Source of the DNA: Pleurocapsa minor HA4230-MV1
GTDB taxonomy: Bacteria > Cyanobacteriota > Cyanobacteriia > Cyanobacteriales > Xenococcaceae
Direction: 5' to 3'
Length of the DNA: 64,000 nt
NCBI GenBank assembly: GCA_019359095.1
Contig: JAHHHZ010000036.1
Span: forward strand, 124,001-188,000
In this document: one piece after another, positions 5,685-26,801 of the stretch
How the letters are laid out: each line of letters starts with the position of its first letter
How positions within the stretch are numbered: position 1 is the stretch's first letter
The notes under the pieces: generated by a model
Database searches by the model: none
Seen by the model: the letters and a program-made list of their open reading frames with translations, nothing else
Told to the model about the DNA's origin: nothing
Translations under genes and position numbers: made by a program

Positions 5685-5709
5685 CGATCGCGCATTTTTA
5701 GAGTTACAA

Positions 5710-5794
5710 TTCATGGAAAATGTTTCAAAAGCTAATAGCTAATAGCTAAAAACCGATTGACCCTATGCGTAGTCTTTTAACTTATCACGAATGG
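5710..5794 (+). repeat. Dispersed 85-bp repeat, copy 1
   Basis: This spacer segment begins TTCAT, contains a short AGCTAAT heptamer run, and ends CACGAATGG. It matches 10254-10352 along its length apart from scattered substitutions and two extra heptamers in the other copy. It lies between the convergent dnaJ and DUF2993 genes. Confidence 0.7.
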
Positions 5795-6529
5795 TTATTG
5801 AGAATCAGGAAAATCGCTAATTACAGCCTTAGCTGCCATAATCATTTTTCCCTGACCAACATCAAGTTTATCGATCTTGAAGGAGACGGCATTTAATTCA
5901 AAATTACGCAGATCGAGTAATTCCTTGACGCTATCGAGTAAAGCTTGAGCAAATGCGGCATTGTCAGCAGCATGATATTCCACATCGGCGATCGCAATTT
6001 TATTACCGTCAGCATCCAAAGTCGGTTTAGCCGACAAAGCAATATGTTTTGTGGTTTGTGATTCGGCTATCTCGATATCTGCTTCGAGGTTGATTTTGCC
6101 CTCTCCAGGCAGCGCCAATTTGACATTATGCGCGTTAACTGTAACTGTTTCACCATTAAGATCTAGCTTCTGGTTTTTGAGCTTACCTTTAATATATTCA
6201 GAATTCAAAGCTTGCTGTAGATCTGTTTCCAAGAGAACTATTTTGGCTTCAGCATTGGTATCTTGAGTCAATTCAATATTACCCAAGGCAGCTTTAACTG
6301 CATCGATCGCGATCTCGTCAGTCTGAAGAATTAATCTTTCCGCCCTTAATTCTTTTTTCATCACCATGCCTTTACCGTCAATGGTGACAGACTCTAATTT
6401 GCCGCCAACTAGATCCAGGGGATTAGCTCTAACATCAACCTGGAGATCTTCTACCTCATCTAGCTGACTTTCGATCCCAACTTCTGCTGCTTTACTAATT
6501 GCTTGTTCGCCAAGATCAGGCTGGTTCAT
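5795..6529 (-). CDS. DUF2993 (LmeA-like) lipid-binding-type protein
   Basis: The protein resembles the cyanobacterial DUF2993 family: repeated beta-strand segments such as VDVRANPLDLVGGKLESV and LRAERLILQTDEIAIDAV, in the style of tubular lipid-binding proteins. The start is placed at 6529 (MNQPDLGEQ) because AGAGGA sits about 8 nt upstream of this ATG. A longer frame up to 6577 adds 16 residues without a good ribosome-binding site. With this start the protein has 244 residues and no obvious signal peptide, so it is probably cytoplasmic or peripheral to a membrane. The function in cyanobacteria is not established; lipid binding is inferred from the family. Confidence 0.72.
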   Translation of the reverse strand: MNQPDLGEQAISKAAEVGIESQLDEVEDLQVDVRANPLDLVGGKLESVTIDGKGMVMKKELRAERLILQTDEIAIDAVKAALGNIELTQDTNAEAKIVLLETDLQQALNSEYIKGKLKNQKLDLNGETVTVNAHNVKLALPGEGKINLEADIEIAESQTTKHIALSAKPTLDADGNKIAIADVEYHAADNAAFAQALLDSVKELLDLRNFELNAVSFKIDKLDVGQGKMIMAAKAVISDFPDSQ

Positions 6530-8435: not shown

Positions 8436-10157
8436 CTAATTATGACAACGATAAAGCTCGTAATTATGTTGTCCTAATACACCCTCATACTCAGAATCGG
8501 CAGCACAATTTTGGGTTGCCAGTTCAACTTCAGCCCGAAAATTAATGAGCCATAAATCAAAAGGTCGCTCTATTTTGCTTAGTTCTTGAGTCAGTATGGC
8601 AGCAGAGTTTTGAGCATTAGGGTATTCAGTTTCATCTTTAGCTAGCAAAAATAAGGGAGAAGCAATGTTAGGTAGACTTCTTAAACCCCAAGCCAGCCCA
8701 ATCATTCTGCCTGTCTGTCCGTGATGTTTATAAGTTGTGGCGATCGCAATTGGGCCTGTCGAACCCGCGATGATTTTATTGCTCATTAAATCGGGACGAT
8801 GGTTTTGTAAATAGCCTAGATTTAAGTTAGCGATCGCTCCACTAAATAGTCCAATCGCTATAAAAATAATTACTATTCTTTTGCTACTTTTAATTGAGTT
8901 TGAGGCAAACTTGGCTGACTTTTGTGAGAAGATAAGTTCAGCTGAGGTTTCTGACCAAAAAGGACTTAATCCAGCTGCTACTAGAGCAATAACCACAGGA
9001 AAATAAACAAACTGAAACCTGCCTGCCAGGGTTAAATCCATGCCCAAAATATAGGTAAAACCACAAAAAAGTGCGATCGCCGCTAGCAAATATTTTTCTA
9101 AGGCTAAAATTGCGTCTTTTTGCTGCATATTTTGACGCTGGAATCTTAATCCACGGATTAAATAAGCTAGGTTTCGCCACCAAAAAATCAGTGTTAATAA
9201 TCCTGAAAAAATAACTATAGCCAATGAGAAATTGTATAGGGAGGAAGGAAGTAGGATCACTATACTCATCAACCATAAAAGAAATCTGCCTATCGGTTCT
9301 AGCCATTTTTCCGCAGCATTACTAGCATAAATCCATTCAGTAGGCGAACTATTACGAACCGCCAATAAAGGAGATAGCCAGACTAAACAGCCAGCTAGGG
9401 AACCCAATGCACCCAGATAGACTTGTCGCCACTGGGGTTGAGTAAGTACGGCTTTATCTTGTCGCCATTGCTGCCACATAAGTTGGGTAAAAGCGATCGC
9501 CATTGCCATTAAGCTCAAAACGAAAAAGTAGTGAGTGGCGATGCCCAGACAGTTAATGACAATCCAAATTCCTACCAGTTTGGTAGAGATAGCTTTTTGC
9601 TGATTAATTGCTCGAACAGCGCAGACATAACATGCTAAAGAAGCGATAATAATTAAAATTACTAAGGTGTAATGACGCGCCTGGGCTGCTAAAAAAATGC
9701 CGAAGGGTGAAATTGCCATCACAGCAGCAGCTAGTTGCGAGACGATTAAAGAGCGAAAAGCAAGTCGGCAAAAGTAAAAAATTGCGGGAATGCCCAGAAC
9801 TCCCAGTAAGGCAGAAAGGGATCTGGCTGCCCAAACAGAAACTAGCCCATCTACTGGCGGAAACAGTTTTAACCACAGATGAGTTAAGACAAAATACAAA
9901 GGGGGATGAGTGCTTTCTGTTTGCAAAAGATGGATGACATCGCCTATTCCCGCCTGAGAATTGAGCTGAAGTGGCTCTAAGAGAGTTTCTAGCCCAATAA
10001 ATTGATTTAAAGGCACATTATAAAAACTATTACCGAGACTAAAAACAAGCGTGGCACTTTCATCAGTCCAAGGTGGTAATATTCCTAAATTGATCAAACG
10101 CAGACAGGTTCCCAGGATAATCCATAAGAGCAATAGCCAATAATGTTGATAGGGCAT
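8436..10157 (-). CDS. GT39-like multi-pass membrane glycosyltransferase
   Basis: The 573-residue protein has an N-terminal hydrophobic segment, then DESATLVFSL in the first loop, the acidic motif typical of GT-C fold mannosyl/arabinosyl-type transferases. About ten further hydrophobic segments and a soluble C-terminal tail with several Cys follow. THPPLYFVLTHLWLKLF matches the conserved first-loop region of the family. Such enzymes move sugars from polyprenyl-phosphate donors on the outer face of the plasma membrane; donor and acceptor are unknown. The first 26 bp of the gene belong to the 75-bp segment repeated at 21850-21924. This implies that it once followed the D-lactate dehydrogenase gene by 4 bp. 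Confidence 0.75.
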   Translation of the reverse strand: MPYQHYWLLLLWIILGTCLRLINLGILPPWTDESATLVFSLGNSFYNVPLNQFIGLETLLEPLQLNSQAGIGDVIHLLQTESTHPPLYFVLTHLWLKLFPPVDGLVSVWAARSLSALLGVLGIPAIFYFCRLAFRSLIVSQLAAAVMAISPFGIFLAAQARHYTLVILIIIASLACYVCAVRAINQQKAISTKLVGIWIVINCLGIATHYFFVLSLMAMAIAFTQLMWQQWRQDKAVLTQPQWRQVYLGALGSLAGCLVWLSPLLAVRNSSPTEWIYASNAAEKWLEPIGRFLLWLMSIVILLPSSLYNFSLAIVIFSGLLTLIFWWRNLAYLIRGLRFQRQNMQQKDAILALEKYLLAAIALFCGFTYILGMDLTLAGRFQFVYFPVVIALVAAGLSPFWSETSAELIFSQKSAKFASNSIKSSKRIVIIFIAIGLFSGAIANLNLGYLQNHRPDLMSNKIIAGSTGPIAIATTYKHHGQTGRMIGLAWGLRSLPNIASPLFLLAKDETEYPNAQNSAAILTQELSKIERPFDLWLINFRAEVELATQNCAADSEYEGVLGQHNYELYRCHN

Positions 10158-10206
10158 TTATTCAAGCATCAGGTAATCTAACGAAATTATCACAAGGTTA
10201 GTTTAA
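10132..10206 (+). repeat. 75-bp direct repeat, left copy, bracketing the organosulfur block
   Basis: This segment aligns without gaps to 21850-21924, with 68 of 75 bases identical by hand count. It holds the first 26 bp of the GT39 gene, a 4-bp spacer and a broken copy of the D-lactate dehydrogenase 3' end. Read on the minus strand, the last part encodes PCDNFVRLPDA and a stop, matching the dehydrogenase C-terminus [11 protein letters not shown]. The true dehydrogenase gene is 11.7 kb away. Confidence 0.9.
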
Positions 10207-10466
10207 TAGGAAGTAGGAAATAGGAAATAGGCATCGCTTCAAGGTAACTAAAGTTCATCAAAAATATCTCAAAAGCTAACAGCTAATAGCTAATAGCTAA
10301 CAGCTAAAAAGCGATTGACAAACATCGTAGTCCCTTAACTTGTCACCAATGGGAAATAGGAAGTAGGGCGAAATTACTGTGCATCTTAATTTAAATTGAA
10401 TACAATTGAAAATGAATTGTAAGTCAAAAAAAATAACAATCAGTTTGATTCAGCGTCTGTACAGCT
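10158..10466. other. Intergenic region between GT39 and the CDO-flavoprotein fusion
   Basis: This divergent spacer holds promoters for both flanking genes, the dehydrogenase remnant (to 10206), GGAAATA-type heptamers (10207-10230 and 10352-10368) and a dispersed repeat (10254-10352). Just upstream of the fusion gene, ACAATT and AATTGT (10401-10420) form a short inverted repeat that could be an operator; this is only a suggestion. Confidence 0.55.
10254..10352 (+). repeat. Dispersed repeat, copy 2 (two heptamers longer)
   Basis: The same element as 5710-5794, in the same orientation. The flanks align base for base with a few substitutions. The internal AGCTAAT/AGCTAAC run has two more 7-bp units, which accounts for the 14-bp length difference. 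Confidence 0.75.
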
Positions 10467-12461
10467 ATGAAAATTCTTGAAACCAGATTGACTTTAGACG
10501 ATTTCATCCTCGAAATGAACAAAGTGCCTAGTCATGAACTTAAGCTTGCTCAACTTCAAGACTGGGTAGCAAGATTAGATTTAGAAGATCTGGCGATCGC
10601 CAAGCATATTTACTTTAGTCCTGAAGATTATCAACGCCGAATCATTTACCGCGACTCAAGCTGTGAAATAATTCTCGTCTGCTGGCAACCAGGACAATTT
10701 AGTTCCATTCACGATCATGGTGATTCTTTGAATGTAACTCACGTTTACCAAGGCGTACTTACTTCTAGAACTTTTGCTCGAACTGATTCTACAACTAAAA
10801 TTGCACCTCTGCTTTTGGAAGAAAAATATTTACAGCCAGGGGAATTAATCGGAGTCGATCGCGCTCAAATTCATCAAATTGCCAATACTTCAGAGGAAAA
10901 TTTAATTACTCTCAACTTTTATGCCAAACCACTACAACAGATGCAAGTTTATAACTCCACGAGAGAACAAACGCAATTTCCATCAATTCGAGCTAATTTT
11001 CACAAATTTGAGTCGCAGATAACAAGTATAGCGATCGTTGGTGGTGGTTTTAGTGGTTCGATGGTGGCGGTACATCTACTCAAAAATGCAGTTTCTCCGC
11101 TACGTATTAAGCTAATCGAAAGTCGTCCTGTTGTCGGTGAAGGAATTGCTTACAGCACTAATTGGGATTGTCATTTGCTTAACGTGCCTGCTGGTAAAAT
11201 GAGTGCTTTTCCAGACCATCCCGACCATTTTTGGCAATGGTTACAGACGCAAGAATCAGAAATAGGTAAAAAATTTAGTCCAGATGATTTTGTTCCACGA
11301 AAGCTTTACGGTGAATACGTTAAATCAATTTTAGCCGAAGCAGAAGCCGAGGCAAATACAGGTGTGAGTTTGGAAAAATTAACTGATGAAGCGATCGCTT
11401 TAGAAACGAATACAGAACGCGCTACTATTGATCTTAGTAGTGGTAAAAGCCTGGAAGCCGATCGCGTCGTACTAGCTTTAGGTAATTTTCCACCTGCCGA
11501 TCCTCCTGTTGCCGATCCTGCTTTTTATCAGAGTCAACGTTATTTTCGCTTTTGGTCTGCACCATCTTTGTTATCCTCTGTAGCTACTGACGAAGCGATT
11601 TTAATCATTGGTTCTGGCTTAACTGCTATAGATGCGATCTTGGCACTTGAGCGACAAGGACATCAAGGCAAAATTTATGTTGTTTCCCGTCGTGGTTTAT
11701 TTCCTCAAATCCATCAGCCAAGCAATTCTTATCCACCCTTGTTCGAGTTTGAACCAATACCAACCACAATTCGTTCTTTAGTACGTAGAATTAGACAGGA
11801 GCTAAAAATAGCTGAGGCTAGAGGTGATAACTGGCAATCGATCATAAATTCCCTTCGTCCCCAGATTCAATTAATTTGGCAATCCCTGGCGATCGCTGAA
11901 AAACAAAGATTTTTACGCCATGTTAAACCCTACTGGGAAAGTCATCGTCATCGAGTCCACAGTGCGATCGCTCGGCAAATTGAGCAAAAAGTTGCAGCAG
12001 GACAATTACATCTCTTGGCAGGACGTATTCAAGCCTACAATGAAGATGCCGAAGGAGTAAATGTATCGATTCGCGAGCGATGTAGCAACTATATAAAGAA
12101 CTTACGAGTAGGTGCAGTGATTAACTGTACGGGGTCGGAATGCAACTATCACCGATTGCAACATCCTCTAATTAAAAATTTACTCAGTTCTGGTCTGATT
12201 AAACCAGATCCCCTCAATCTTGGTTTAGATGTAGCTGACGACGGCACACTGATTGATGCAGCAGGGGCAAGATCTACTTTTCTTTTTACTCTCGGTTCGC
12301 CTCAAAAAGGCTGTCTTTGGGAAACAACTGCGGTATCTGAAATTCGTCAGCAAGCTCAGACATTAGCACAGCAATTACTTGCTCTAGAGATGAAAAATGA
12401 TTCTTTAAACAGATCTTTTATCATTCCAGAACAACAGCCTGTTTGGTATTACGAAATTTAA
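10467..12461 (+). CDS. Cysteine dioxygenase-like cupin fused to FAD/NAD(P)-binding protein
   Basis: This 664-residue protein joins two enzymes. Residues 1-165 form a cysteine-dioxygenase-type cupin: SSIHDHGDSLNV supplies two iron-ligand histidines (H82, H84) and DRAQIHQIAN the third (H136). From residue 186 a Rossmann FAD-binding motif, SIAIVGGGFSGSMVAV, opens a domain like the COG4529/YdhS flavoproteins, with a second dinucleotide site at ILIIGSGLTAIDAILAL. Known cysteine dioxygenases make cysteine sulfinate; what the flavin half does is unknown, and oxidation or reduction of a sulfur intermediate is inference. It opens an organosulfur gene block (methanethiol oxidase, ssu genes) and is convergent to the ferredoxin gene. 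The N-terminal Cys of the eukaryotic Cys-Tyr cofactor is absent, as usual in bacteria. Confidence 0.85.
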   Translation: MKILETRLTLDDFILEMNKVPSHELKLAQLQDWVARLDLEDLAIAKHIYFSPEDYQRRIIYRDSSCEIILVCWQPGQFSSIHDHGDSLNVTHVYQGVLTSRTFARTDSTTKIAPLLLEEKYLQPGELIGVDRAQIHQIANTSEENLITLNFYAKPLQQMQVYNSTREQTQFPSIRANFHKFESQITSIAIVGGGFSGSMVAVHLLKNAVSPLRIKLIESRPVVGEGIAYSTNWDCHLLNVPAGKMSAFPDHPDHFWQWLQTQESEIGKKFSPDDFVPRKLYGEYVKSILAEAEAEANTGVSLEKLTDEAIALETNTERATIDLSSGKSLEADRVVLALGNFPPADPPVADPAFYQSQRYFRFWSAPSLLSSVATDEAILIIGSGLTAIDAILALERQGHQGKIYVVSRRGLFPQIHQPSNSYPPLFEFEPIPTTIRSLVRRIRQELKIAEARGDNWQSIINSLRPQIQLIWQSLAIAEKQRFLRHVKPYWESHRHRVHSAIARQIEQKVAAGQLHLLAGRIQAYNEDAEGVNVSIRERCSNYIKNLRVGAVINCTGSECNYHRLQHPLIKNLLSSGLIKPDPLNLGLDVADDGTLIDAAGARSTFLFTLGSPQKGCLWETTAVSEIRQQAQTLAQQLLALEMKNDSLNRSFIIPEQQPVWYYEI

Positions 12462-12529
12462 TTTTACCAATGGATAATAAACAGTTATAGCAGTCGAAGT
12501 AAAGGTTAGGACAAGAAAAATTTTATCTC

Positions 12530-12556
12530 GCGCAAAGGCGCAAAGACGCAAAGGGT
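12530..12556 (+). repeat. CGCAAAG-type 8-bp tandem repeat
   Basis: Three units of CGCAAAGG/CGCAAAGA lie in the convergent spacer between the fusion gene and the ferredoxin gene. This simple repeat is common in cyanobacterial intergenic DNA. Confidence 0.6.
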
Positions 12557-12619
12557 CTAGGAGATGACTTAATCTATTGTTCGATGGCTATAATTAATAA
12601 TTGTCCATTGAATTATCAA

Positions 12620-12931
12620 TTATTTAAAAGGATTAAGATACAAATCTTTCTGAGACTCCAAACCAACTTCAAACTGACAATGCGATCGCGCACGGGCAAT
12701 ACAAAGCAATACGTATCCAGCTTTTATTTGTTCTGGTTTAAGACAAATGGCTTGAGATTGGTCTACTTTGCCACTAATTAATTTGGCAGCGCAGGTAATA
12801 CAAGCTCCATAGCGACAACCGACAGGTAAGGGCAATCCAGCTTGCTCCACTGCCTCTAAAATATATTTATCTTCAGATATTTCCAAGGTAAAGTTATCTC
12901 GATTGAGCAATTCGATGCGATACGTTTTCAT
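12620..12931 (-). CDS. 2Fe-2S plant-type ferredoxin coupled to methanethiol oxidase
   Basis: The 103-residue protein has the plant-type iron-sulfur motif: C39, C44 and C47 in [10 protein letters not shown], and C77 in YVLLCIA. The start is set at 12931 (MKTYRIELL) because this ATG shares ATGA with the stop of the upstream SBP56 gene. A frame seven codons longer would overlap that gene further. The 1- to 4-bp overlap implies translational coupling, so this ferredoxin is likely a dedicated electron carrier or maturation partner for the methanethiol oxidase (inference). It differs from photosynthetic PetF by its [19 protein letters not shown] loop with an extra Cys (C63). Confidence 0.9.
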
Positions 12932-14277
12932 AGCCAAATATCGGAAGTACAATCGCCTCCTGGATAACGCATTTCATGGGCGCGGGCTGCCCCGTTTGGT
13001 TCTTTACCAAAGTCTAGATAAAAATCTTGATTGAGAGACAGTCCTCCCTTATCTTGATCGCAATCGATTTGTAGCAAGTAAGAACCTTTTTTGGCTAAAT
13101 CTGGATAAAATTGGTTATCCCAAGTGCTAAATAGCGAACTAGTAACGTATAAGCGTTTGCCATCTAGACTCAGTTGCAACATTTGTGGCCCGCCGTGCAG
13201 TTTTTGTCCTTTAACTTCAATATTTTTACCCAACAATCCTCCACACCAAACTTGTCCTGTTAGCTTAGGTTTGGCAGGATCGCTGATATCATACTGACGA
13301 ATATCGCCATGTAACCAGTTAGAAAAATAGAGATAGCGATCGTCGAGAGAAATTAAGATATCTGTAATTAAGGAAGGGACGGGAAAAGACCAGCCTTCTA
13401 GTTCAACAGCAGGAACATCGATGACTTTTTCGACTTGCCAATAATCATTTTCTTTATACCAATGCCAAATATTACTAGCTAAAGCAGCACCTACATAACC
13501 GTGAATACTATCGGGATTATGATGAAAGCGCACTTCTAGGGGAATTAAACCTTCTTCTCCCAAATCGACGCTTTGGATAATTTCGTGTTTCTGCCAATCC
13601 CAAAAATGTAGTTGCTGACCGTAATTTCCAGCCGTAACATCGTTAAGATCGAAACCAGGATAGAAGGTTTTGGGTGCAGCCCATTCGCTGCTCACCATGA
13701 CGTTATGGCGAGGCTGATACCAGAAATCGTAGTTAAATTTCATGCCATTGCTTTGTTCCCAACGACCGATAATTTCAAAGCTCTCATCTAATAGTAAAAA
13801 GCCACCTGGAGCATTACCTTGGCTATCTCCTAACATAGAAATCATTAACTGACCGTTAGCCAAACAGTGAACGGTATGAGGTGCGCTAAGATTAGTCTTG
13901 TCTTTAATCTCTTCTGGTTCAATGATCTTATGAATTTTGGGTGCTTTGGCATCGGCAGTATCTACAATATAAATGCGACTGGAACGAATTCCTGGTATGA
14001 CCAAAAATCGACGGGATTTGTTGCTATCCCCATGACAAGAACTACAGGCATTCCAGCCAAAGTGATGCAATTCATCGCCAATATAAGGCATAGTCAGCCG
14101 ATGAATTATTTGAGAATAGCTAGGAGAATCTGGATCGACATCTATTGTCGCGAGATAATCAGGTTGTTCAATTCCCGTGCCAGTATAAAGAGCGATCGCA
14201 TATAACAGCTTTTCTGGTTCGGCTTTCATTGCTGCTTGGGGAGAAGCATAGCCAGGGCCACAACATACATCTGCCAT
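12928..14277 (-). CDS. Selenium-binding protein SBP56 / methanethiol oxidase
   Basis: The 449-residue product is a full-length SBP56 family protein. It opens [20 protein letters not shown], then has APDYLATVDVD-like [11 protein letters not shown], and the metal/active-site segment [15 protein letters not shown]. Human SELENBP1 and bacterial MtoX oxidise methanethiol to formaldehyde, hydrogen sulfide and hydrogen peroxide, using copper. The family call is certain; methanethiol as substrate is inferred from the family and supported by neighbouring sulfur genes. No signal peptide is seen, whereas many proteobacterial MtoX are periplasmic. The gene heads a two-gene operon with the ferredoxin at 12620-12931. 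Its promoter must lie in the repeat-containing region 14278-14652. Confidence 0.92.
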
Positions 14278-14652
14278 TTTTTTACCTCCTCTAAAAAATT
14301 CGGTCGAGATTCTGACAATCTACAATCGATAAATCTAAAATCTCAAATAACTCAGTCAACCTTCTCTAATTTATTTTGATTTAAAACAGTTTTAAATGCA
14401 ATTAAAATTTATTTCAAAAACAAATACAATCTAAAAAATCTAAATGACTCTCTAAGACCACTCTAGCTAATAACTAACAATCAACGATCCTGATTATCTT
14501 TACTTCCTACTTAACCCAAATGTTAAATTAATTTTGCATAGTTACTTAGGACTGCTATAGCAACCCCAAATGAGATGAGAAATTTCTACTACCTACTACC
14601 TACTACCTAAAAACTAATCAATGTCGTTTCATGAATCAAATAGGACTACTAT
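14278..14652. other. Divergent promoter region between SBP56 and amidotransferase genes
   Basis: No gene is visible in these 375 bp. The 5' half is very AT-rich and should hold the minus-strand promoter. A run of three CTACTAC heptamers (about 14587-14611) lies close to the amidotransferase start. No riboswitch-like structure was recognised. Confidence 0.5.
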
Positions 14653-15429
14653 ATGTGCCAACTACTAGGTATGAACTGTAACATTCCCACCGATATTTGC
14701 TTTTCCTTCGAGGGTTTTTCAACCAGGGGTGGCAAAACTGACGATCATCGTGATGGATGGGGGATTGCTTTTTTTGAAGGCAAAGGCTGTCAGCTTTTTA
14801 TAGATTCTAAACCTTCTAGTACTTCTGCTGTAGCCGAATTGGTACGACGGTATCCGATCCATTCTACCCATGTCATCGCCCATATCCGTAAAGCGACTCA
14901 AGGAGAGATTCTTCTCGAAAACTGCCATCCTTTTAGTCGAGAATTGTGGGGACGTTATTGGGTATTTGCTCACAATGGCGATTTAGCTGATTTTGAACTT
15001 GAATCAGGGCAATTTTATCAGCCTGTGGGAGATACTGACAGCGAAAAGGCTTTTTGTCTGATTTTAGAAACCTTACGTGCAAACTTTCCCCAAAGTAAGC
15101 CCCCACTGCCAAAATTGTACTCAGTGCTGAATCAGATTACTAAAAAATTAGCAGCAAAAGGCATATTTAATTATCTGCTTGCCGATGGAGAAAATTTCTT
15201 TGCCCATTGTTCTACCCAACTTTGTTACATTGTGCGTCAAGCACCTTTTGCAGCAGCCCATTTAATCGATCGAGATGTTACGGTAGATTTTAACGAATTG
15301 ACCAACAAGAGCGATCGCGTTGCTGTTATCGCCACTACTCCCTTAACCGACAACGAAATCTGGACTCCCATTTGTTCAGGGGAATTATTGGCTTTTCAGG
15401 ACGGTTTACCGATTCAATTCAACTTTTAA
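14653..15429 (+). CDS. Class II glutamine amidotransferase (YafJ/EgtC-like)
   Basis: The 258-residue protein starts MCQLLGMNCN, so Cys2 becomes the N-terminal nucleophile of a class II amidotransferase after Met removal. DGWGIAFFEGKG, HIRKATQG, NCHPF and FAHNGDLADF are the typical Ntn-hydrolase glutaminase motifs. It is a stand-alone domain of the YafJ/EgtC type: EgtC hydrolyses gamma-glutamyl bonds in ergothioneine synthesis. No egtB or egtD lies nearby, so an ergothioneine role is not supported here. Given the sulfur genes around it, cleavage of a gamma-glutamyl-thiol compound is one possible job, stated only as inference. The gene is divergent from the SBP56 operon. Confidence 0.82.
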   Translation: MCQLLGMNCNIPTDICFSFEGFSTRGGKTDDHRDGWGIAFFEGKGCQLFIDSKPSSTSAVAELVRRYPIHSTHVIAHIRKATQGEILLENCHPFSRELWGRYWVFAHNGDLADFELESGQFYQPVGDTDSEKAFCLILETLRANFPQSKPPLPKLYSVLNQITKKLAAKGIFNYLLADGENFFAHCSTQLCYIVRQAPFAAAHLIDRDVTVDFNELTNKSDRVAVIATTPLTDNEIWTPICSGELLAFQDGLPIQFNF

Positions 15430-15548
15430 AGCTTACAGCAGTTTTCAATTGACTAGACTTAAATTAAAGCAAAGAGATAATTTATCTCCATCCTTATATA
15501 ATCTAGCTTTGATCAGAAAGAGATCGCTTTTTTAGCGAAGAATTAGAA

Positions 15549-15893
15549 ATGGAATTTCAAGACATCAGTTCGATTGAAAAATATCACGCCCACGTTTATT
15601 TTGATGAAGTCACCGTCGAACAAGCAAAAATATTGTGTGAAGAAGCAGGAAAAAGGTTTTCAGTAATCGTGGGACGGATGCACCATAGACCTATTGGGCC
15701 TCATCCGAGTTGGAGTTGTCAATTAGCTTTCGATCGCAGCAATCATACAGATTTGCTAACCTGGTTAGCCTTAAACAGAAATGATCTGACAATATTGATT
15801 CATCCACTTACAGGTAATGATCTAAAAGACCACACTGATTATGCTTCTTGGATGGGAGTACCTCAAGAATTAAATTTAGATGTGTTTAAATAA
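15549..15893 (+). CDS. DOPA 4,5-dioxygenase-like small protein
   Basis: The 114-residue protein matches the DOPA 4,5-dioxygenase family of small fungal and cyanobacterial proteins. YHAHVYFDE near the start, GRMHHRPIGPHPSWSCQLAF in the middle and LIHPLTGNDLKDHTDYASWMG at the end carry the conserved histidines for non-haem iron. Family members open catechol rings outside the diol (extradiol), but the substrate in cyanobacteria is not known. It follows the amidotransferase gene by 119 bp on the same strand and faces the aldo/keto reductase gene. The spacer at 15433-15452 holds the 20-mer TTACAGCAGTTTTCAATTGA, repeated in inverted form at 55512-55531. Confidence 0.82.
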   Translation: MEFQDISSIEKYHAHVYFDEVTVEQAKILCEEAGKRFSVIVGRMHHRPIGPHPSWSCQLAFDRSNHTDLLTWLALNRNDLTILIHPLTGNDLKDHTDYASWMGVPQELNLDVFK

Positions 15894-15938
15894 ACAAAAT
15901 AGCAGGCATTAAGTAAGTCAGCATGACTGTCTGGTATT

Positions 15939-16904
15939 TTAAGTCCACTGACGAAAGAATGCGCCATTTTCTCCAGCGTTAGTAGTTAATTGTTCTATTT
16001 GGGTCATTTGTGCTGTGTTCAAAGGAGTATAATTGCGCGCTACGGTCACGTTGGATTCTAGTTGTTCGGGATTTTCGGCAGCTATGATGCAACAATGTAC
16101 TCCAGGTAAAGAGAGGCTATACCCCATAGCCTGTTCCATACTAGATAAAAGACCAGGTTGTAATAATTTACCGTAGGCAGGGACTTTCATAGCGATTACA
16201 CCGACATTTTTTTCTCTTGCTACTGGCAATACGGTACGGGAAAATGGACGGGGATGATGAACATCGGCAGCGTTGAGAGAAATTAAAGTCGTATCAAAAT
16301 CGTAGCGACGCAACCCCTCGGCAATAACTTCTGGTTCGTGATGTCCTGTAATTCCCGAAAATTTAATTAATCCTTGCTCTTTGGCTTCTTCAACAGCTTT
16401 GATTGCGCCTCGATCGCTAAAAATAGTATCTAATTCATCAGTAAAGGAAACGTGGTGTAATTGCCAAGAATCAAGATAATCTGTCTGAAGACGTTTTAAT
16501 GAACGCTCTAATTCTCGCCAAGCACCATCATAATCTCTGGCTGCGGTTTTACTGTTGAGATAAATGCGATCGCGATAGGTCGGTAAAACTTTACCAAAGC
16601 GTTCCTCTGAAGGCCCATAGCTGGCTGCGGTATCGTAATATTTGATCCCTAATTCTAAAGCTTTCTCAATTAAAGCGATCGCTTCAACTTCTAAATCTTC
16701 ATAGGAAATTGGAGTTTGCCCTGCTCCACCCAAGCCCAAGATTGGTAGACTAATCTGAGTCTCGCCTAATATTCTTTCTGGCATGGATTTGGTTGTTGAT
16801 GAAGAGGCGTGAGCTGTTTTTTTGATTAAAGCTTGGCTGCCAATAACTGTTGCTGCTGCTACGCTACTTACCAGAAAGTTTCGTCGATTGGTTTTTTGGC
16901 TCAT
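15939..16904 (-). CDS. Tat-exported aldo/keto reductase
   Basis: The 321-residue protein starts with a twin-arginine signal: NRRNFLVSS followed by a hydrophobic alanine-rich segment and AHASS, a likely cleavage site near residue 33. The mature part is an aldo/keto reductase barrel with YYDTAASYGPSEERFGK, NSKTA and QLHHVSF carrying the Asp/Tyr/Lys/His catalytic set. NADPH-dependent reduction of a carbonyl is the family reaction; the substrate is unknown. Export of an NADPH enzyme is unusual but recurs in the Tat-linked AKR subgroup. It sits between the DOPA-dioxygenase-like gene (convergent) and two small minus-strand genes. Confidence 0.85.
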   Translation of the reverse strand: MSQKTNRRNFLVSSVAAATVIGSQALIKKTAHASSSTTKSMPERILGETQISLPILGLGGAGQTPISYEDLEVEAIALIEKALELGIKYYDTAASYGPSEERFGKVLPTYRDRIYLNSKTAARDYDGAWRELERSLKRLQTDYLDSWQLHHVSFTDELDTIFSDRGAIKAVEEAKEQGLIKFSGITGHHEPEVIAEGLRRYDFDTTLISLNAADVHHPRPFSRTVLPVAREKNVGVIAMKVPAYGKLLQPGLLSSMEQAMGYSLSLPGVHCCIIAAENPEQLESNVTVARNYTPLNTAQMTQIEQLTTNAGENGAFFRQWT

Positions 16905-16974
16905 AATTTTTGATTTTAGCTTTCAGAAGTATTCTAGCGAGAATATTTCTTGGGTAAAAAATTAACTTTAGCCT

Positions 16975-17205
16975 TTAATCATTAGCTTTTTCCCAGGATG
17001 GTGCAAAAGGTGGTAAAGCCAAACGACAAGAACGCCAGTGACCATAAACTGAAACTCCAAGTTTGCAGCAAGAACCTCTACCTTGACCTCCATCAAACTT
17101 GTAAAACCGACAGAAACGGCAATTGGAAGGGGATGGATTAGCTTTTTTAATCTGAGTTTTGTCTCGTTCCAGGGATTCAGTCAGTTTCTGTTTGGTTAGT
17201 GTCAT
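16975..17205 (-). CDS. Cys-rich cyanobacterial mini-protein
   Basis: This 76-residue protein has a charged N-terminal half and a compact second half containing five cysteines: NCRFCRFYKF, GRGSCCKLG and HWRSCRLALPPF. The spacing (CxxC, CC, C) suggests metal or iron-sulfur binding, but no described family was recognised. It lies between the aldo/keto reductase and NIL-domain genes on the same strand, 45 bp downstream of the latter, so it may be co-transcribed with it. No clear Shine-Dalgarno sequence precedes its ATG, which fits translation coupled to the upstream gene. The function is unknown. Confidence 0.6.
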   Translation of the reverse strand: MTLTKQKLTESLERDKTQIKKANPSPSNCRFCRFYKFDGGQGRGSCCKLGVSVYGHWRSCRLALPPFAPSWEKAND

Positions 17206-17250
17206 GGGTTAAAGAAGCTTTTTCTGTTGATATTTTTTTTATTTGTGATT

Positions 17251-17565
17251 TTAGTAATACCAACTATCGCGAGGGGGGTTGGCTTTACCAGTAATTTTGA
17301 GATCAAGGGATTCTAAATAAGCTAGTCCACAACGAATCTGGGGAATCGTACCTCGCAGTTCGAGATCGAGTTGTCCTTTCAATTCGTAATCTTTGCCTAA
17401 TTTCGCTCCAGTAATGTTGAAAGCTAAGGCACAATCAGTAGCTAACCGCGACAGTATGGGTTCTTGTTGGTAGCGATCGCAAAATAAAATTTGTAATCGT
17501 ACTTGAGTAAAGTCATTTCGGTCATCAGAAGTGCTGGAAATGTTGCCTAGTTCGGTTTGGCTCAT
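17251..17565 (-). CDS. NIL-domain protein
   Basis: The 104-residue protein contains a NIL domain, the ferredoxin-like fold first seen at the end of the methionine ABC ATPase MetN. The motif VRLQILFCDRYQQEPILSRL followed by FNITGAKLG and then GQLDLELRG fits the family. Stand-alone NIL proteins occur in cyanobacteria and are thought to bind small ligands, possibly sulfur amino acids; that is family-level knowledge, not shown here. Its ATG overlaps the stop codon of a 6-codon leader frame (17562-17582) that carries the good Shine-Dalgarno site. It is divergent from ssuA, so the 17583-17757 spacer regulates both. Confidence 0.75.
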   Translation of the reverse strand: MSQTELGNISSTSDDRNDFTQVRLQILFCDRYQQEPILSRLATDCALAFNITGAKLGKDYELKGQLDLELRGTIPQIRCGLAYLESLDLKITGKANPPRDSWYY

Positions 17566-17582
17566 GGCTTGATACCCATCAT
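17562..17582 (-). promoter_or_regulatory. Leader mini-ORF overlapping NIL gene start
   Basis: AGAGGAG is followed at once by ATG ATG and four more codons (peptide MMGIKP). Its TGA overlaps the ATG of the NIL-domain gene as ATGA. The main ATG lies 18 nt from the Shine-Dalgarno site, too far for direct loading, so coupling through the leader is likely. Confidence 0.45.
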
Positions 17583-17757
17583 GCTCCTCTAGAGAGAAAT
17601 TAAATCTGCTTTTATTTTCCTTTTTTGAATTGTAATCGCAATCTAAATAAATTTCAAATTAAATAAGATACATTTTCAATTTATTTGTGGTTTACTAGAG
17701 ACATACGCATTGTTTTAGATAATCTATTTCCACTCTCAAACAAAAGAGGGTTCAATT

Positions 17758-18873
17758 GTGGTTTTTTGCTCAAAATCATTTCTAATTGGTATTTTCAGCT
17801 ATCCTACTAAAGGTAGCTACAAGACTTGTCGGCGTGCCTTCTACCTGCGACCTACTTCGCTTCTGTTTGCCTTGAGTTTAGGATTGAGTACAACTTTATC
17901 AGGCTGTCTTCCTAATGATTCTGCTAACTCGACTGATACAATTTCCCCCGTTACTTCCTCTGTTGATACAGTTAATTCCAATAGCAACGTTGAAAGTCAG
18001 GTAATTCGGATTGGCTATCAAAAGTTTGGCACGCTTTCAATTCTCAAAGCACGGGAGAATTTAGAGCAACGTTTGGCAAATCAGGGAATTTCGGTACAGT
18101 GGGTTTTGTTTCCCGCAGGGCCTCAACTACTAGAAGCCTTGAATGCAGGTAGTATTGATTTTGGACATACTGGAGAAGCACCGCCTATCTTCGCTCAAGC
18201 TGCTGGTGCGCCTTTGGAGTACGTTGCCAATCAAACACCAAACCCTAAAGGCGAAGGAATTCTGGTACATCAAGACTCAGACATTAAAACAGTAGCGGAT
18301 CTTAAAGGCAAAAAAATTGCTTTAAATAAAGGGTCTAACGTGCATTTTCTGCTCGTCAAAGCTTTAAAAGCAGGAGGTGTTAAATATGAAGATATTGAAA
18401 CTGTCTTTTTGCCTCCTGCCGATGCGAGGGCAGCTTTTGAGCAAGGTAGTGTTGATGCCTGGGCGATTTGGGATCCTTTTTATACAGCAGCTAAACAAGC
18501 GACAAATGCCCGTGTTCTGGAAGACGGAGAAGGATTAGTAGCAAATCGGGAGTTTTATTTAGCAGCTAAATCTTTTGTCGATCGCTATCCCGAAAGAATT
18601 AAGACAATTCTGGAAGAAGCTGAAAAAGCCGATGTTTGGGCAAAGACAAATATTACTGAAGCAGCAAAGCTGTTGTCGCCCCAGTTAGGTATTGACGTGC
18701 CAGTACTGGAAGAAGTATTGGAACGTCGTCCTAGTGGGATTGAACCTATTCAACCAGACGTAGTGGCCGATCAGCAGCAGGTAGCAGATACCTTTTACCA
18801 ACTAAAACTATTACCCAAAACAGTTCGAGTGCAAGAAGTTGCTCGCACAACTAAGCAAAATATAGAGAGATAA
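17758..18873 (+). CDS. ssuA: Alkanesulfonate ABC transporter substrate-binding lipoprotein
   Basis: The 371-residue protein binds aliphatic sulfonates for import by the SsuBC transporter. It starts at GTG, preceded by AGAGGG with 7 nt spacing, and has a signal peptide ending in the lipobox LSGC (Cys50). It is therefore a membrane-anchored lipoprotein. A Ser/Thr-rich linker of about 30 residues is followed by the SsuA/TauA domain: [40 protein letters not shown] and AWAIWDPFY are diagnostic. ssuD begins 5 bp downstream, so the gene heads the ssuADCB operon. Expression is probably raised under sulfate limitation, as for ssu genes elsewhere, but no CysB/CysR-like site was identified with confidence. 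Confidence 0.93.
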
Positions 18874-18878
18874 TTACT

Positions 18879-20042
18879 ATGCAAGTTCTCTGGTTTATTC
18901 CCACTCATGGAGATGGTCGTTATTTAGGTACTGGAATCGGCGGACGCTCGACCGATATTACCTATCTAACTCAAATTGCTCAAGCTGTCGATCGCCTGGG
19001 CTATACTGGCGCATTATTACCCACAGGGCGTTCTTGCGAAGATGCCTGGATCGTTGCTTCAACTCTAATGGCGCAGACACAACAGATGCGTTTTCTGGTG
19101 GCGGTGCGTCCAGGTTTGGTCTCTCCAGGAGTTGCTGCACGGATGGCTGCTACCTTCGATCGCTTGTCTGGGGGACGTTTACTTATCAACGTCGTGACGG
19201 GTGGCGATCCAGTTGAATTAGCAGGAGATGGGTTGCACCTGAGTCATCCAGAACGTTACCGACTGACAGATGAATTTCTTACTGCTTGGCGAGAAATTAT
19301 TAGTGGAGATGAAGCCAATTTTGAAGGGGATTATCTCAATATTCGCGGTGGCAAATTGCTGTTTTCTCCCGTGCAGAAACCCTATCCGCCTTTGTGGTTT
19401 GGTGGTTCTTCGGCGATCGCCCAACAGATTGCAGCTAAACACGTAGATGTCTATTTAACCTGGGGAGAAACTCCCAAACAAGTAGCGCAAAAGATTGCTG
19501 AAGTACGTCGTTTGGCAGAAGCAGAGGGACGAAAGATCCGCTTCGGGATTCGTTTACACGTTATCGTGCGAGAAACAGAAAGCGAAGCCTGGGATGCAGC
19601 TAATCGGTTAATTAAATATGTCGATGAAGAGGCGATCGCTACTGCTCAACAAGCCTATGCCCGTATGGATTCGGAAGGACAAAAGCGGATGAGTCAATTA
19701 CACACAGGCAAGCGTGAAACCTTAGAAATTAGCCCTAATCTGTGGGCTGGTATTGGTTTGGTTAGAGGTGGGGCTGGAACAGCACTAGTAGGCGATCCAG
19801 ATACGGTAGCAGCCAGAATGTCCGAGTATGCAGATTTGGGAATTGAGACTTTTATCTTATCGGGCTATCCCCATTTGGAAGAAGCATATCGTGTAGCGGA
19901 ATTGTTATTCCCGCTTTTACCCCTAGACAATCCGCCAGCAGTTCAGCAGCAAGTAATGTTTAGTCCGTTTGGTGAAATTGTAGCGAATAATAATTTTCCC
20001 CAGCAGGAGATTAAGAATCAAGTAGTGACTACTGTTGATTAA
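18879..20042 (+). CDS. ssuD: FMNH2-dependent alkanesulfonate monooxygenase
   Basis: The 387-residue product is a bacterial-luciferase-fold flavin monooxygenase that releases sulfite from C2-C10 alkanesulfonates, giving the aldehyde. The N-terminus [16 protein letters not shown], the strand [25 protein letters not shown] and [20 protein letters not shown] are characteristic of SsuD. It is cytosolic and needs reduced FMN from a reductase (SsuE), and no ssuE gene is visible in this window. It lies 5 bp after ssuA and 57 bp before ssuC; that downstream gap contains a heptamer repeat. The C-terminal 30 residues ([11 protein letters not shown] onward) go a little beyond the shortest family members. 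Confidence 0.95.
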
Positions 20043-20076
20043 AGTAGGGCTTGCTGAATGATCTTAGGGGGAAAAG

Positions 20077-20108
20077 TAATGAGTAATGGGTAATGGGTAA
20101 TGGGTAAT
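20077..20108 (+). repeat. TAATGGG heptamer repeat containing the ssuC start codon
   Basis: Units TAATGAG, TAATGGG (three times) and a partial TAAT follow AGGGGG at 20065-20070. Each unit carries both TAA and ATG. ATG codons at 20079, 20086 and 20093 open 4-codon frames that stop within the array; only the ATG at 20100 opens ssuC. Confidence 0.85.
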
Positions 20109-20882
20109 AAGATTTTAAACAAGAAACAAATAAATTTACTTGCTCCTTGGATAGTTCCAATTCTCCTGATTCTGATTTGGCAAGTATTGGCGCAGATCGG
20201 TTGGATTTCTACTAGGGTATTACCTGCACCTGTAGCTGTAGTCAAGGCAGGTATTAATTTAGCTAGTACAGGTGAATTGTACAAACATATTTATGTCAGT
20301 GCAGTGCGGGCAATGTGGGGATTTATTATCGGGGGTTTGATTGGCTTTGTCTTAGGTTTGATCAACGGTGTCTTTCGTTGGTCGGAACTTTTATTAGATA
20401 CCTCGGTACAGATGTTACGCAACATTCCCCATTTAGCGATGATCCCGTTAGTAATTCTCTGGTTTGGCATTGGTGATGTTGGCAGAGTTTTTTTAGTGGC
20501 GATCGGAGTTTTATTTCCTATTTATATCAATACCTATCTGGGAATTCGTACTGTCGATCGCGGTTTGTTAGAAATGGGCAAAGTATACGGACTTTCTTTT
20601 TGGGAGCTATTTTGGCAGATCATGCTTCCTGGGGCGTTACCGTCAATTTTGGTGGGTGTGCGTTTTGCTTTGGGGATTATGTGGCTGACATTGATTGTGG
20701 CAGAGACGATCGCTGCTAACTCTGGCATTGGCTATCTGGCAATGAACGCCCGTGAGTTTATGCAAACAGATGTCGTGGTATTCGCGATTTTATTGTATGC
20801 CCTGCTAGGAAAATTAGCAGATGCGATCGCTCGTCTATTAGAAACGAAATTGCTGCAATGGCATCCCAGTTATCAATTTTAA
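20100..20882 (+). CDS. ssuC: Alkanesulfonate ABC transporter permease
   Basis: The 260-residue protein is the membrane-spanning subunit of the sulfonate importer. It has six hydrophobic segments and the permease loop region GLSFWELFWQIMLPGALPSI, which docks to the ATPase. The likely start (20100) is the last ATG of a heptamer array and codes for MGNKILNKK before the first membrane segment. No other ATG, GTG or TTG lies in frame between the array and that segment. The best Shine-Dalgarno site is 29 nt upstream, so translation may depend on re-initiation through the array. ssuB follows by 24 bp. Confidence 0.92.
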   Translation: MGNKILNKKQINLLAPWIVPILLILIWQVLAQIGWISTRVLPAPVAVVKAGINLASTGELYKHIYVSAVRAMWGFIIGGLIGFVLGLINGVFRWSELLLDTSVQMLRNIPHLAMIPLVILWFGIGDVGRVFLVAIGVLFPIYINTYLGIRTVDRGLLEMGKVYGLSFWELFWQIMLPGALPSILVGVRFALGIMWLTLIVAETIAANSGIGYLAMNAREFMQTDVVVFAILLYALLGKLADAIARLLETKLLQWHPSYQF

Positions 20883-20906
20883 GTAATTTGAGTAATAAGT
20901 ATATAT

Positions 20907-21692
20907 ATGACTATGACTGATAAGGGAGTAGACCTGAAAATTTTAGAGTTAAGTAAAGCCTTTGGTGACAAAAAGATTTTGCAACAACTAGATTTAGAAC
21001 TTGCCCCTGGAGAATTTGTGGTGATCGTCGGACGTAGTGGGTGCGGTAAAAGTACCCTGCTAAGACTAATTGCTGGGCTGGAAACTCCCACCAGTGGAGG
21101 CGTATTAATTGACGGAGAACCTTTTAAAAAATTAAACCAGTCCGCACGCATGATGTTTCAGGATGAGCGACTATTGCTGTGGAAACGAGTTTTAGAAAAT
21201 GTCGGCTTGGGACTACGGGGTAATTGGCAACCTCAAGCTATGTGGGCTTTAGAGCAAGTTGGTTTAGGCGATCGCGCTCATGACTGGATTGCTCAACTTT
21301 CTGGCGGACAACGTCAACGAGTTGCCTTAGCACGAGCCTTAGTTAGCCAACCGCGCTTACTGCTGTTAGATGAGCCTTTAGGTGCGCTAGATGCCTTGAC
21401 CCGTATCGAAATGCAGCATTTAATCGAACATTTATGGCAGTCACAACAATTTACGACCTTACTAATTACTCACGATGTGGAAGAAGCAGTCACACTAGCC
21501 GATCGCGTCGTCTTATTAGAAGCAGGTCGAGTGGAGTTGGATATACCCGTTCCTCTGCCTCGTCCCCGTCACCGTGGTGATGCTATGTTTGCTGCTTTAG
21601 TAGAACGTATTTTAGAGCGTGTACTGAACAGTAAAACCGTTTCTAGAAAACAAACTGCCGACAGACAATTCGTAATTCATAATAGCAACTGA
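20907..21692 (+). CDS. ssuB: Alkanesulfonate ABC transporter ATPase
   Basis: The 261-residue protein is the ATP-hydrolysing subunit that drives sulfonate import. It has Walker [10 protein letters not shown] (residues 42-50), signature [17 protein letters not shown], Walker [13 protein letters not shown] and the switch histidine in [27 protein letters not shown] is the Q-loop region typical of the SsuB/TauB subgroup. The C-terminal 20 residues are polar and variable. It is the last gene of ssuADCB; its final codons touch a 149-bp terminal-inverted-repeat element starting at 21689. Confidence 0.94.
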
Positions 21693-21837
21693 TGTTACGC
21701 AGAGAAAAGTTAGTAATTACAAGATGTAGGGAGACTGGGAGATGGGGAGATAGGGAGATAATTATTGCCCCAAGTCCCCAAGTCCCCAAGTCCCTACGTC
21801 AAAACTATAGAGTAAATTAGCAGATGCGTAATATCAG
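21689..21837 (+). mobile_element. MITE-like 149-bp element with 13-bp terminal inverted repeats
   Basis: The left end CTGATGTTACGCA (21689-21701) and the right end TGCGTAATATCAG (21825-21837) are inverted repeats with one mismatch. The interior holds GGGAGAT and TCCCCAAG simple repeats and no coding frame. Related pieces occur at 22969-22981 (an end only), 25296-25360 (left half) and 46800-46880 (right half inverted). Confidence 0.7.
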
Positions 21838-21849
21838 ATAGTAATAAGT

Positions 21850-21924
21850 AATAGCTAATAATGTCGATCGGGCATTTATTCAAGCATCAGGTAATTTAAC
21901 GAAATTGTCACAGGGTTGGTTTAA
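21850..21924 (+). repeat. 75-bp direct repeat, right copy
   Basis: This matches 10132-10206 without gaps (68/75). Here the D-lactate dehydrogenase end is intact. What follows it on the minus strand is a remnant of the GT39 start (MPDRHY then a stop), the mirror image of the left copy. Confidence 0.9.
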
Positions 21925-22881
21925 GGCGATCGCCGTAATATTAGACAAAGTGGTTTCGGCAATACTATTCAAAGCCTCTACCGTAAAGAAAGCCTGGTGT
22001 CCTGTAATAATTACGTTGGGAAAAGTAAGCAACCGTTCAAAGTCATCATCTTGGATAATTTCGCCAGATAAATCTTCAAAAAACAGTTTCCCCTCGTGTT
22101 CGTAAACGTCTAGTCCTAAATAACCAATTTGTTGGGATTTTAAACCTCGAATTACCGCTTTTGTATCGATCAACCCCCCACGACTAGTATTAATTAACAT
22201 CACTTCTGGCTTCATCAGGCTAATTGCTGTGGTGTCGATTAAATGGTGGGTATCGTCCGTAAGGGGACAATGCAGACTAATAATATCTGATTGAGCAAGC
22301 AAATCCTCTAAGCTCATATATTCCCCAAATTGCTCGGCAAACTCCTGATGGGGAGACAAATCATAAGCCAGTATCCGACAGCCAAAACCATGCAGAATTT
22401 GACCTGTGAGACGACCAATTTTTCCCGTACCAATAATGCCCACCGTACGACCATGCAAATCGAAACCCAGTAGTCCATTTAGGGCAAAGTTACCTTCACG
22501 GACACGATAATAAGCCCGATGTATTTTGCGATTGAGAGTTAAAATTAAGGCGATCGCATGTTCGGCTACGGCATAAGGAGAATAGGCTGGTACTCGGACG
22601 ACGGCAAGTCCAAATTCTTCAGCAGCATTAAGATCGACGTTGTTATACCCCGCACATCTCAGGGCAATTAATTTAACCTCTTGGTTACTCAAGATTTCAA
22701 TTGTCTGACGATCCAGGCGATCGTTGACAAAAACACATACAGCCTCAAACCCAGAGGCTAAACTTGCCGTCTGCGCATCTAAACCAGCATCTAAAAACTT
22801 GAGTTCATGACCATATTTTTGATTAACTTGAGCCAAAAATTGGCGATCGTAAGGTTTAGCACTAAATACCGCAACTTTCAT
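21880..22881 (-). CDS. D-lactate dehydrogenase (2-hydroxyacid dehydrogenase family)
   Basis: The 333-residue protein is an NAD-dependent D-isomer hydroxyacid dehydrogenase of the fermentative D-LDH type, reducing pyruvate to D-lactate. The substrate-binding arginine is in [13 protein letters not shown], the Rossmann motif is [13 protein letters not shown], the acid-base pair is the Glu in [13 protein letters not shown] and the His in [13 protein letters not shown]. It ends [14 protein letters not shown]39 gene probably once followed after 4 bp; what remains is a 6-codon stub. It is now the first complete gene on the far side of the organosulfur block, and lies downstream of ppk on the same strand. 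Confidence 0.92.
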
Positions 22882-25141: not shown

Positions 25142-25295
25142 TGTTTGCGGGATTACCGAATTAATATGCAGAGAGCTTTAGATATTTTAGGCAATAAACC
25201 TGGTTCTTAGAATCTTATCTTCAATGGATGTAGCCATTTCATCTGCCTATGGTTGTAAATATGGTAATAAATGCTCTCTAAGGATTGATTAAGAA

Positions 25296-25360: not shown

Positions 25361-25431
25361 GTTTATTTTCCAAGGTCATAATACACAATTTAAATGCGTA
25401 CAAGCTTATCTAAATATGAAAGCCAAAAATC

Positions 25432-26751: not shown

Positions 26752-26801
26752 GACTGATACTAAATCCGATTCTCAAAAATAACTTGGTGGTAAGCAGTTT
26801 A

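Follow-up and report, generated by a model that had tools for sequence, protein, structure and literature searches.

Direct repeats around an organosulfur gene cluster of Pleurocapsa minor HA4230-MV1: a possible duplication scar rather than a mobile-element mark

Introduction

Genomic islands that use protein-coding genes are bordered by direct repeats spanning the 3' end of the gene, and the host gene stays whole. A locus of the cyanobacterium Pleurocapsa minor HA4230-MV1 resembles such islands in its border direct repeats and its intact host gene. Here, an organosulfur gene cluster lies between two 75-bp direct repeats, each built from the end of a D-lactate type dehydrogenase gene (LDH) and the start of a gene labelled GT39. 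Unlike in the islands, no integrase was found at this locus, and part of the repeat occurs without the cluster in a related genome, that of Pleurocapsa sp. CCALA 161. The locus is located within a 64,000-nucleotide stretch (contig C36, positions 124001-188000), which we call the window; coordinates without a prefix refer to it.

The cluster (hereafter also the block) is of a known kind, a sulfonate cluster, with some unusual company. It can be compared with the ssuADCB cluster of alkanesulfonate utilisation: SsuA, SsuC and SsuD of the block exceed the curated NCBIfam cut-offs, whereas SsuB falls below its equivalog cut-off, ssuE has no match in window positions 1-40000, and a cysteine dioxygenase-flavoprotein fusion (CDO-flavoprotein), a ferredoxin, an SBP56 protein and other genes are added. 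Two Nostoc sulfonate clusters (NZ_CP151102.1 and NZ_CP054697.1) also carry a related FAD-NAD(P) flavoprotein (about 48%) near sulfonate transport genes. Both, however, are located on plasmids, and the fusion partner of the flavoprotein in Nostoc sp. UHCC 0302 is a metallo-beta-lactamase domain, not cysteine dioxygenase. Among the matches listed in our literature search, no paper described this cluster in this genus.

As for duplications, one report (PMC4867675) describes a 110-kb chromosomal tandem duplication in Synechocystis PCC 6803 GT-W bordered by identical ISY100 transposase genes. The likeness to our locus lies in a duplicated stretch, and in duplications arising and getting lost in cyanobacteria. 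Our locus differs in that only a short stretch was copied, neither extra copy is live, and the two are separated by genes with a different history.

We suggest that an old duplication, which left a scar, accounts better for the repeats of P. minor than a mobile element does. On a narrow balance, we favour an explanation in which the scar came first and the cluster came later to lie in the dead space.

Results

Two copies of a former LDH-GT39 junction

The genome of P. minor (G000) comprises 5,636,891 bases in 36 contigs. Of the genomes compared, those closest to it belong to Pleurocapsa sp. CCALA 161 (G005) and the Hyellaceae metagenome-assembled genome (MAG) cyanobacterium CSU_1_1 (G002); other genomes are referred to by our numbers. 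The features at the edges of the block are:

8436-10157, minus strand: GT39-like gene (label of an earlier sequence-only reading), 80-81% identical in G005 and G002
10132-10206: left junction copy, with a live GT39 start and a dead LDH tail
10207-10379: left spacer outside the shared block, with heptamer repeats and a dispersed intergenic repeat (core about 10249-10367)
21693-21849: right spacer outside the shared block, with dispersed repeats (e.g., also at 25294-25361)
21850-21924: right junction copy, with a live LDH end and a dead GT39 stub
21880-22881, minus strand: D-2-hydroxyacid (D-lactate type) dehydrogenase, LDH (Pfam 2-Hacid_dh, 2-Hacid_dh_C)
22997-25141, minus strand: polyphosphate kinase 1 (PPK), the neighbour of LDH

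The sequence-only reading had described the repeat as ungapped, and indeed the two copies are identical at 68/75 positions. A repeat finder lengthens the pair to 78 bp (10129-10206 and 21847-21924, 90%). This is the sole pair with at least 64/75 identity in the window when 75-mers sharing a 12-mer and lying at least 200 bp apart are compared; the best value in ten first-order Markov resamples of the window is 43/75. The left copy has two matches at E <= 0.001 in the whole genome, namely the left and right copies themselves.

The gene reading proposed for the repeat is also correct. On the minus strand, each copy consists of the LDH end, TGA, the 4-bp spacing ATAA and the GT39 ATG. GT39 is whole at the left copy, where the LDH tail is broken by TAA; LDH is whole at the right copy, where the GT39 stub has six codons followed by TAG at codon 7. 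By eye, four of the seven differences between the copies fall in the LDH half and three in the GT39 half, and in the latter the right copy deviates from the GT39 genes of G000, G005 and G002 alike, as should be expected of decaying remnants. The unused half of each junction copy has decayed.

That LDH and GT39 once adjoined, as had been proposed, is borne out by a GT39-adjacent LDH tail in three genomes (G000, G005 and G002). We surveyed 12 same-genus genomes for orthologues (at least 63% identity for GT39 and 70% for LDH; incomplete genomes include G001, 81%, and G004, 82%). GT39 was found in four (G002, G004, G005, G006) and LDH in nine, with G005 the only one to hold both, 687 bp apart and in the same orientation. 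An LDH-tail fossil, identical in G005 and G002, is located 5 bp before GT39. In G005 it exists besides a complete LDH, with no block present, while G002 has the fossil but yielded no orthologue of LDH (best match 37%); the GT39 relatives of G004 and G006 have no LDH tail beside them. The PPK-LDH pair is kept in G005, G012, G011, G001, G010 and G003, not in G008, and the gene after LDH differs between genomes. The GT39 label itself is unconfirmed, as no Pfam or NCBIfam model supports it; a profile of five homologues gave a weak match to a protein mannosyltransferase structure (E 0.038). The gene shares 62% identity with one on a contig labelled as a Saprospiraceae MAG (L101), which is possibly a mis-binned cyanobacterial contig.

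More of LDH was copied than the repeat itself covers. Upstream of the fossil, G005 and G002 retain a further 22-23 bp of LDH; in G005, these 23 bp correspond exactly to the LDH codons for KLFFEDL in the same orientation (E 5e-4, whole-genome search). As LDH codons precede the fossil, the copied part of LDH exceeded 75 bp and later suffered a partial deletion. Of the origins suggested by the sequence-only reading, duplication followed by loss fits this best, and the fossil is bordered by LDH sequence and not by block sequence in both genomes. Thus, in G005 a duplicated LDH end exists without the block, and the repeats therefore need not record the arrival of the block. Presumably the duplication is the same event as in P. 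minor; it may be older than the block or independent of it.

The G005 gap between LDH and GT39 contains a decayed IS1-family transposase (PF03400, E 2.3e-6), whose end matches another copy in G005, and the tail of the complete LDH is cut by this IS1-family element. Two ideas on these sequences were dropped. An 18-bp repeat in G005 was considered as an IS1 target duplication, but the end of the element, judged by eye from two copies, lies further on. The sequence upstream of the left copy in P. minor was considered as homologous to the LDH codons kept in G005, but turned out to be a dispersed repeat.

Genes of the block

The block holds the following 11 genes and one motif used below:

10467-12461, plus strand: CDO-flavoprotein, a cysteine-dioxygenase domain fused to an FAD-NAD(P)-binding flavoprotein (Pfam CDO_I, NAD_binding_9)
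12620-12928, minus strand: 2Fe-2S plant-type ferredoxin (Pfam Fer2; TIGR02008 above cut-off), its bound set at an internal ATG, the listed open reading frame (ORF) opening at 12952
12928-14277, minus strand: SBP56 / methanethiol-oxidase-like protein (Pfam SBP56, 1.7e-221)
14653-15429, plus strand: class II glutamine amidotransferase, GATase_4 (family scan)
15448-15459: 12-mer ATTGACTAGACT, the meeting point of two block pieces of G012
15549-15893, plus strand: DOPA 4,5-dioxygenase family protein (family scan)
15939-16904, minus strand: aldo/keto reductase, AKR (family scan)
17251-17565, minus strand: NIL-domain protein (family scan)
17758-18873, plus strand: SsuA, sulfonate-binding protein (NF008588 and TIGR01728 above cut-off)
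18879-20042, plus strand: SsuD, FMNH2-dependent alkanesulfonate monooxygenase (TIGR03565, 616.5 bits, cut-off 518.2)
20100-20882, plus strand: SsuC, sulfonate permease (NF008470 above cut-off)
20907-21692, plus strand: SsuB-like ATPase (best match NF008420, 352.5 bits, cut-off 395)

Most likely, the predicted products import and desulfonate alkanesulfonates (SsuABCD) and handle small thiols (CDO-flavoprotein, SBP56). The SBP56 protein fails the MtoX NCBIfam equivalog cut-off (141.8 bits against 650). The search for the ssuE flavin reductase was by tblastn, with the SsuE ORF of G008 (TIGR03567) as query. The earlier description of the cargo as nearly all sulfur-related was overstated: six of the 11 genes are clearly so (CDO-flavoprotein, SBP56 and the four ssu genes), while for the ferredoxin, GATase_4, DOPA-dioxygenase, AKR and NIL genes a link to sulfur is not demonstrated.

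The flavoprotein (NAD_binding_9) is fused to cysteine dioxygenase in G000, G012 and G008, is encoded next to it by a separate ORF in G011, and has a metallo-beta-lactamase domain as its fusion partner in G034 as well as in Nostoc sp. UHCC 0302 (loci compared: window 10467-12461; L075:14166-16225; L083:8968-11253; L078:10150-12300). This looks like a partner swap around one sulfur-associated flavoprotein.

A separate history of the block

The sequence-only reading had advised comparing the block with its flanks, and by divergence at four-fold sites the history of the block indeed differs from that of the flanks. For this comparison, genes with less than 60% identity or fewer than 90 aligned residues were excluded, and the "core" genes are our own pick from the window. 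Between G000 and G012, block divergence is 228/887 = 0.257 in seven of the 11 genes (the ferredoxin and NIL genes are missing in G012, and SBP56 and SsuA are fragments) against 698/1327 = 0.526 in eight other genes (Fisher test, 5e-37). Between G000 and G011, the values are 151/492 = 0.307 for the block and 720/1341 = 0.537 for the other genes. In G011, GATase_4 (0.564, included in the pool) and CDO (0.626, left out at 59% identity) are both at the core level, so only the ssu genes look exchanged there. The core divergence of G000 and G005 is 497/1552 = 0.320.

In the control pair, G000 and G008, the block value (387/850 = 0.455) is also below that of the other genes (501/849 = 0.590). Block genes are thus somewhat slow, which accounts for part of the gap but does not suffice to explain the G012 value. 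AKR, included in the block pool, is equally low (0.175-0.180) in the pairs with G005, G012 and G002; the G012 value without it is 204/751. Pairwise, ssuBCD are equally close among G000, G012 and G011 (0.25-0.29), while the other genes place G012 near G011 (0.283) and G000 at a distance from both (0.53-0.54). As the block is far less diverged from G012 than the other window genes are, the cluster was exchanged between lineages and did not come by vertical descent alone. Foreign origin judged by composition was dropped as unsupported, the GC content of the block being 0.413 against 0.40-0.43 around it.

Distribution and gene order in relatives

SsuD and the CDO-flavoprotein were searched for in 26 genomes, G000 included. 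SsuD is present in five (G000, G008, G011, G012, G030). Some match to the CDO-flavoprotein occurs in 17/26, exceeding 45% identity in five (G000, G008, G011, G012, G034), and in G034 only the flavoprotein part matches. G005 and G002 have no SsuD and show only weak partial matches to the flavoprotein (29-31%). The remaining block genes were searched as one joined query, so their absence from G005 and G002, among the matches listed, is less firm. AKR is exceptional: G005, G002, G004, G006 and G010 all contain relatives of it, about 90% identical, at loci unrelated to the block.

Against G012, the block aligns in two pieces, 10380-15459 (contig C28) and 15448-21670 (contig C11), overlapping by the 12-mer ATTGACTAGACT; the ferredoxin gene, most of the SBP56 gene, the NIL gene and most of ssuA remain unaligned. 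Near the 12-mer point, both contigs carry pieces of ssuE (residues 34-140 and 138-179 of the G008 protein; L076:5601-6780 and L077:12381-12900), one of which adjoins a stretch that by eye looks of the cystathionine gamma-synthase type. G012 seems to hold a broken, scattered form of a once continuous cluster, and ssuE may have been lost from G000 by recombination between two 12-mers. The idea that the 12-mer serves as a site-specific recombination site was dropped, since the motif occurs 0-2 times per genome in eight genomes and the reversed pattern 0-3 times. The backbone order of G008 is the same, ssuBCDA - NIL - SBP56 - ferredoxin - CDO, with hexapeptide-repeat and mgtC genes in place of the GATase_4-DOPA-AKR genes of G000.

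By blastn, homology on the left starts at 10380 in G012, 10536 in G008 and 10678 in G011, and its right-hand limit is 21669-21670 for each of them. These limits fall at least 173 bp (left) and 179 bp (right) short of the junction copies.

Spacers and mobile-element signatures

Both edges of the block belong to dispersed repeat families with at least 58 genome matches, two of them the edges themselves (40 of 289 candidates scored). A direct-repeat scan of ten stretches for repeats of at least 35 bp lying more than 1 kb apart found in the window the junction repeat and two dispersed-repeat pairs. The pairs are 5705-5809 / 10249-10367, in direct orientation around LmeA-KatE-GT39, and 21687-21753 / 25294-25361, in direct orientation around LDH-PPK; the two families are possible rearrangement substrates. 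An array of near-perfect 7-bp units ATTACCC (26788-26898) is located upstream of the gene 25432-26751.

The absence of an integrase or transposase, pointed out earlier, holds: by Pfam and NCBIfam, 0/11 block genes code for an integrase, recombinase or transposase. There is no tRNA gene in the window. Among the loci compared, the exact 17-mer junction core was found only in G000, G005 and G002, and blastn of window 10000-22100 (E 1e-4) gave no junction-copy match in the cluster stretches of G008, G011, G012, G034 and G030. None of the plasmid records holds 80% of window 10210-18200, the best covering 13%. As no junction copy was found in the stretches compared around the clusters of G008, G011 and G012, the suggested entry of a circle by one crossover at the junction finds no support. 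The repeats are equally unsupported as a mark of such an entry, since G005 has a full LDH and a fossil tail with no block.

Discussion

In the explanation we favour, G000, G005 and G002 had an ancestor in which LDH and GT39 were neighbours. Local duplication of the stretch covering the LDH end and the GT39 start would have produced the order LDH - GT39 stub - second LDH end - GT39. Judged from G005, about 200 bp or more of LDH would have been copied, of which 75-78 bp remain in G000, and the extra copies of the LDH end and GT39 start would then have decayed. Separately, the 11.3-kb organosulfur cluster (10380-21670) would have come to lie between the junction copies. The spacers at its edges are rich in repeats, and recombination there, either illegitimate or mediated by the repeats, is the probable cause. 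We prefer duplication with such a placement because no integrase or transposase, no tRNA and, in the stretches around the clusters of G008, G011 and G012, no junction was found. The former adjacency, the duplication of the junction and the separate history of the cluster are established; a single duplication common to G000, G005 and G002, the sequence of events and the route of entry are the conditional parts of this account.

Several observations weigh against it. No intact single LDH-GT39 junction was found in any genome compared. The search of related genomes, advised by the sequence-only reading, did find both genes near each other in G005 but no block-free junction with the 4-bp spacing; nor does either block-free relative have a single uninterrupted site, G005 carrying LDH and the fossil, and G002 the fossil without LDH. 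That reading had named two observations as contrary to its interpretation, namely close relatives with the same genes in the same places and no repeats, or the two genes never adjacent in any relative. G005 presents neither, since its genes are adjacent and an 18-bp exact repeat is present without the block. The extra upstream LDH codons are not seen in G000 itself, no donor flank reveals how the block entered, and beyond 17 bp the match between the tail of the complete G005 LDH and the right copy is not significant (P 0.17; IS1 lies there). Finally, the copies in G000 differ at 7/75 positions, whereas the pooled core rate predicts 13.7 changes for a duplication as old as the separation from G005 (P 0.026). 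By single genes, the expectation is 13.8 at the PPK rate (P 0.023), 16.7 at the GT39 rate (P 0.003) and 8.4 at the LDH rate (P 0.39). The duplication in G000 may therefore be a separate, younger event than that of G005 and G002, or the copies may have been homogenised.

This age estimate is also part of what speaks for a somewhat unlikely alternative, in which the block entered an intact junction in G000 only, by crossover of a junction-carrying circle or by staggered-break repair copying 75 bp, and the fossil of G005 and G002 arose separately, at the same weak point. The G000 copies indeed resemble each other more (68/75) than either resembles that fossil (63/75 and 61/75), and by the pooled rate they seem to postdate the separation of the species; this argument from age disappears if the LDH rate is used. 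Such an entry requires the junction to have been duplicated twice, independently, each time leaving a remnant that begins at almost the same base of LDH, to within a few bases. Neither by exact 17-mer nor by blastn was the junction found in the stretches compared around the block clusters of G008, G011 and G012. We consider it distinctly unlikely that the block and the junction duplication arrived together in the ancestor of G000, G005 and G002 and that the block was later lost from G005 and G002, e.g., by an IS1-linked deletion. The IS1 debris in the G005 gap would fit such a loss, and since the block divergence of G000 and G012 (0.257) is near the core divergence of G000 and G005 (0.32), the block could predate the split. 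However, block genes have no blastn match at the G005 LDH locus, SsuD and a close CDO fusion are missing from both genomes, and their fossil is bounded by LDH sequence rather than by remains of the block. As for an island integrated at the LDH 3' end by a site-specific recombinase, with the repeats as attL and attR and the integrase since lost, direct repeats spanning a gene 3' end and a whole LDH are what it predicts. It is nevertheless highly improbable, given block genes free of recombinases, a window free of tRNA, and homology to G012 that ends within the spacers, short of the repeats by 173 bp and 179 bp.

Returning to the duplication scar, similar repeats occur around ssu segments elsewhere. 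In G011, the ssuBCDA-CDO unit is bracketed by copies of the flavoprotein and GATase_4 ends (77 bp, 91%; 149 bp, 95%); scrambled duplicate pieces of these two genes are located at L075:7857-8073 and 15993-16417. In G012, the ssuBCDA-DOPA segment is bracketed by the ssuE end (52 bp, 90%), a repeat with two matches in G012 and none in G000, G011 or G005. In G008, one copy of a 54-bp repeat (85%) is located in the mgtC 3' end and the other 14.3 kb off, beyond the ssu genes (G008:C1:1421971-1422024 and 1436307-1436360; L073:3972-4025 and 18308-18361). The second copy matches the MgtC protein weakly (E 0.06) in a stretch that by eye is hairpin-rich, so the G008 pair may be a different kind of repeat. 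G030 has a 65-bp pair (77%) within ssuA-type genes. Of the cluster-free stretches, the G005 LDH locus has one direct repeat (71 bp, 84.5%); none was found in those of G006, G010 and G003, nor in the C28 cluster stretch of G012.

It is tempting to ask whether the cluster moves or amplifies in this genus by an integrase-free route that leaves partial gene copies as border direct repeats. We regard this as unlikely. The genes copied in G011, G012 and G008 are members of the cluster, which those copied in G000 are not, so a shared cause is no more than a possibility. If true, collapsed tandem amplification under sulfur limitation, or excised circles that re-enter by a single crossover, would yield such repeats.

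Flanking direct repeats without an integrase can thus be a pre-existing duplication scar and not an integration footprint, and related genomes are needed to tell the two apart. The organosulfur cluster is part of the gene pool of the genus. As it has been exchanged between Pleurocapsa-type lineages, and related segments are bracketed by repeats elsewhere, the route by which such clusters move in cyanobacteria becomes testable.

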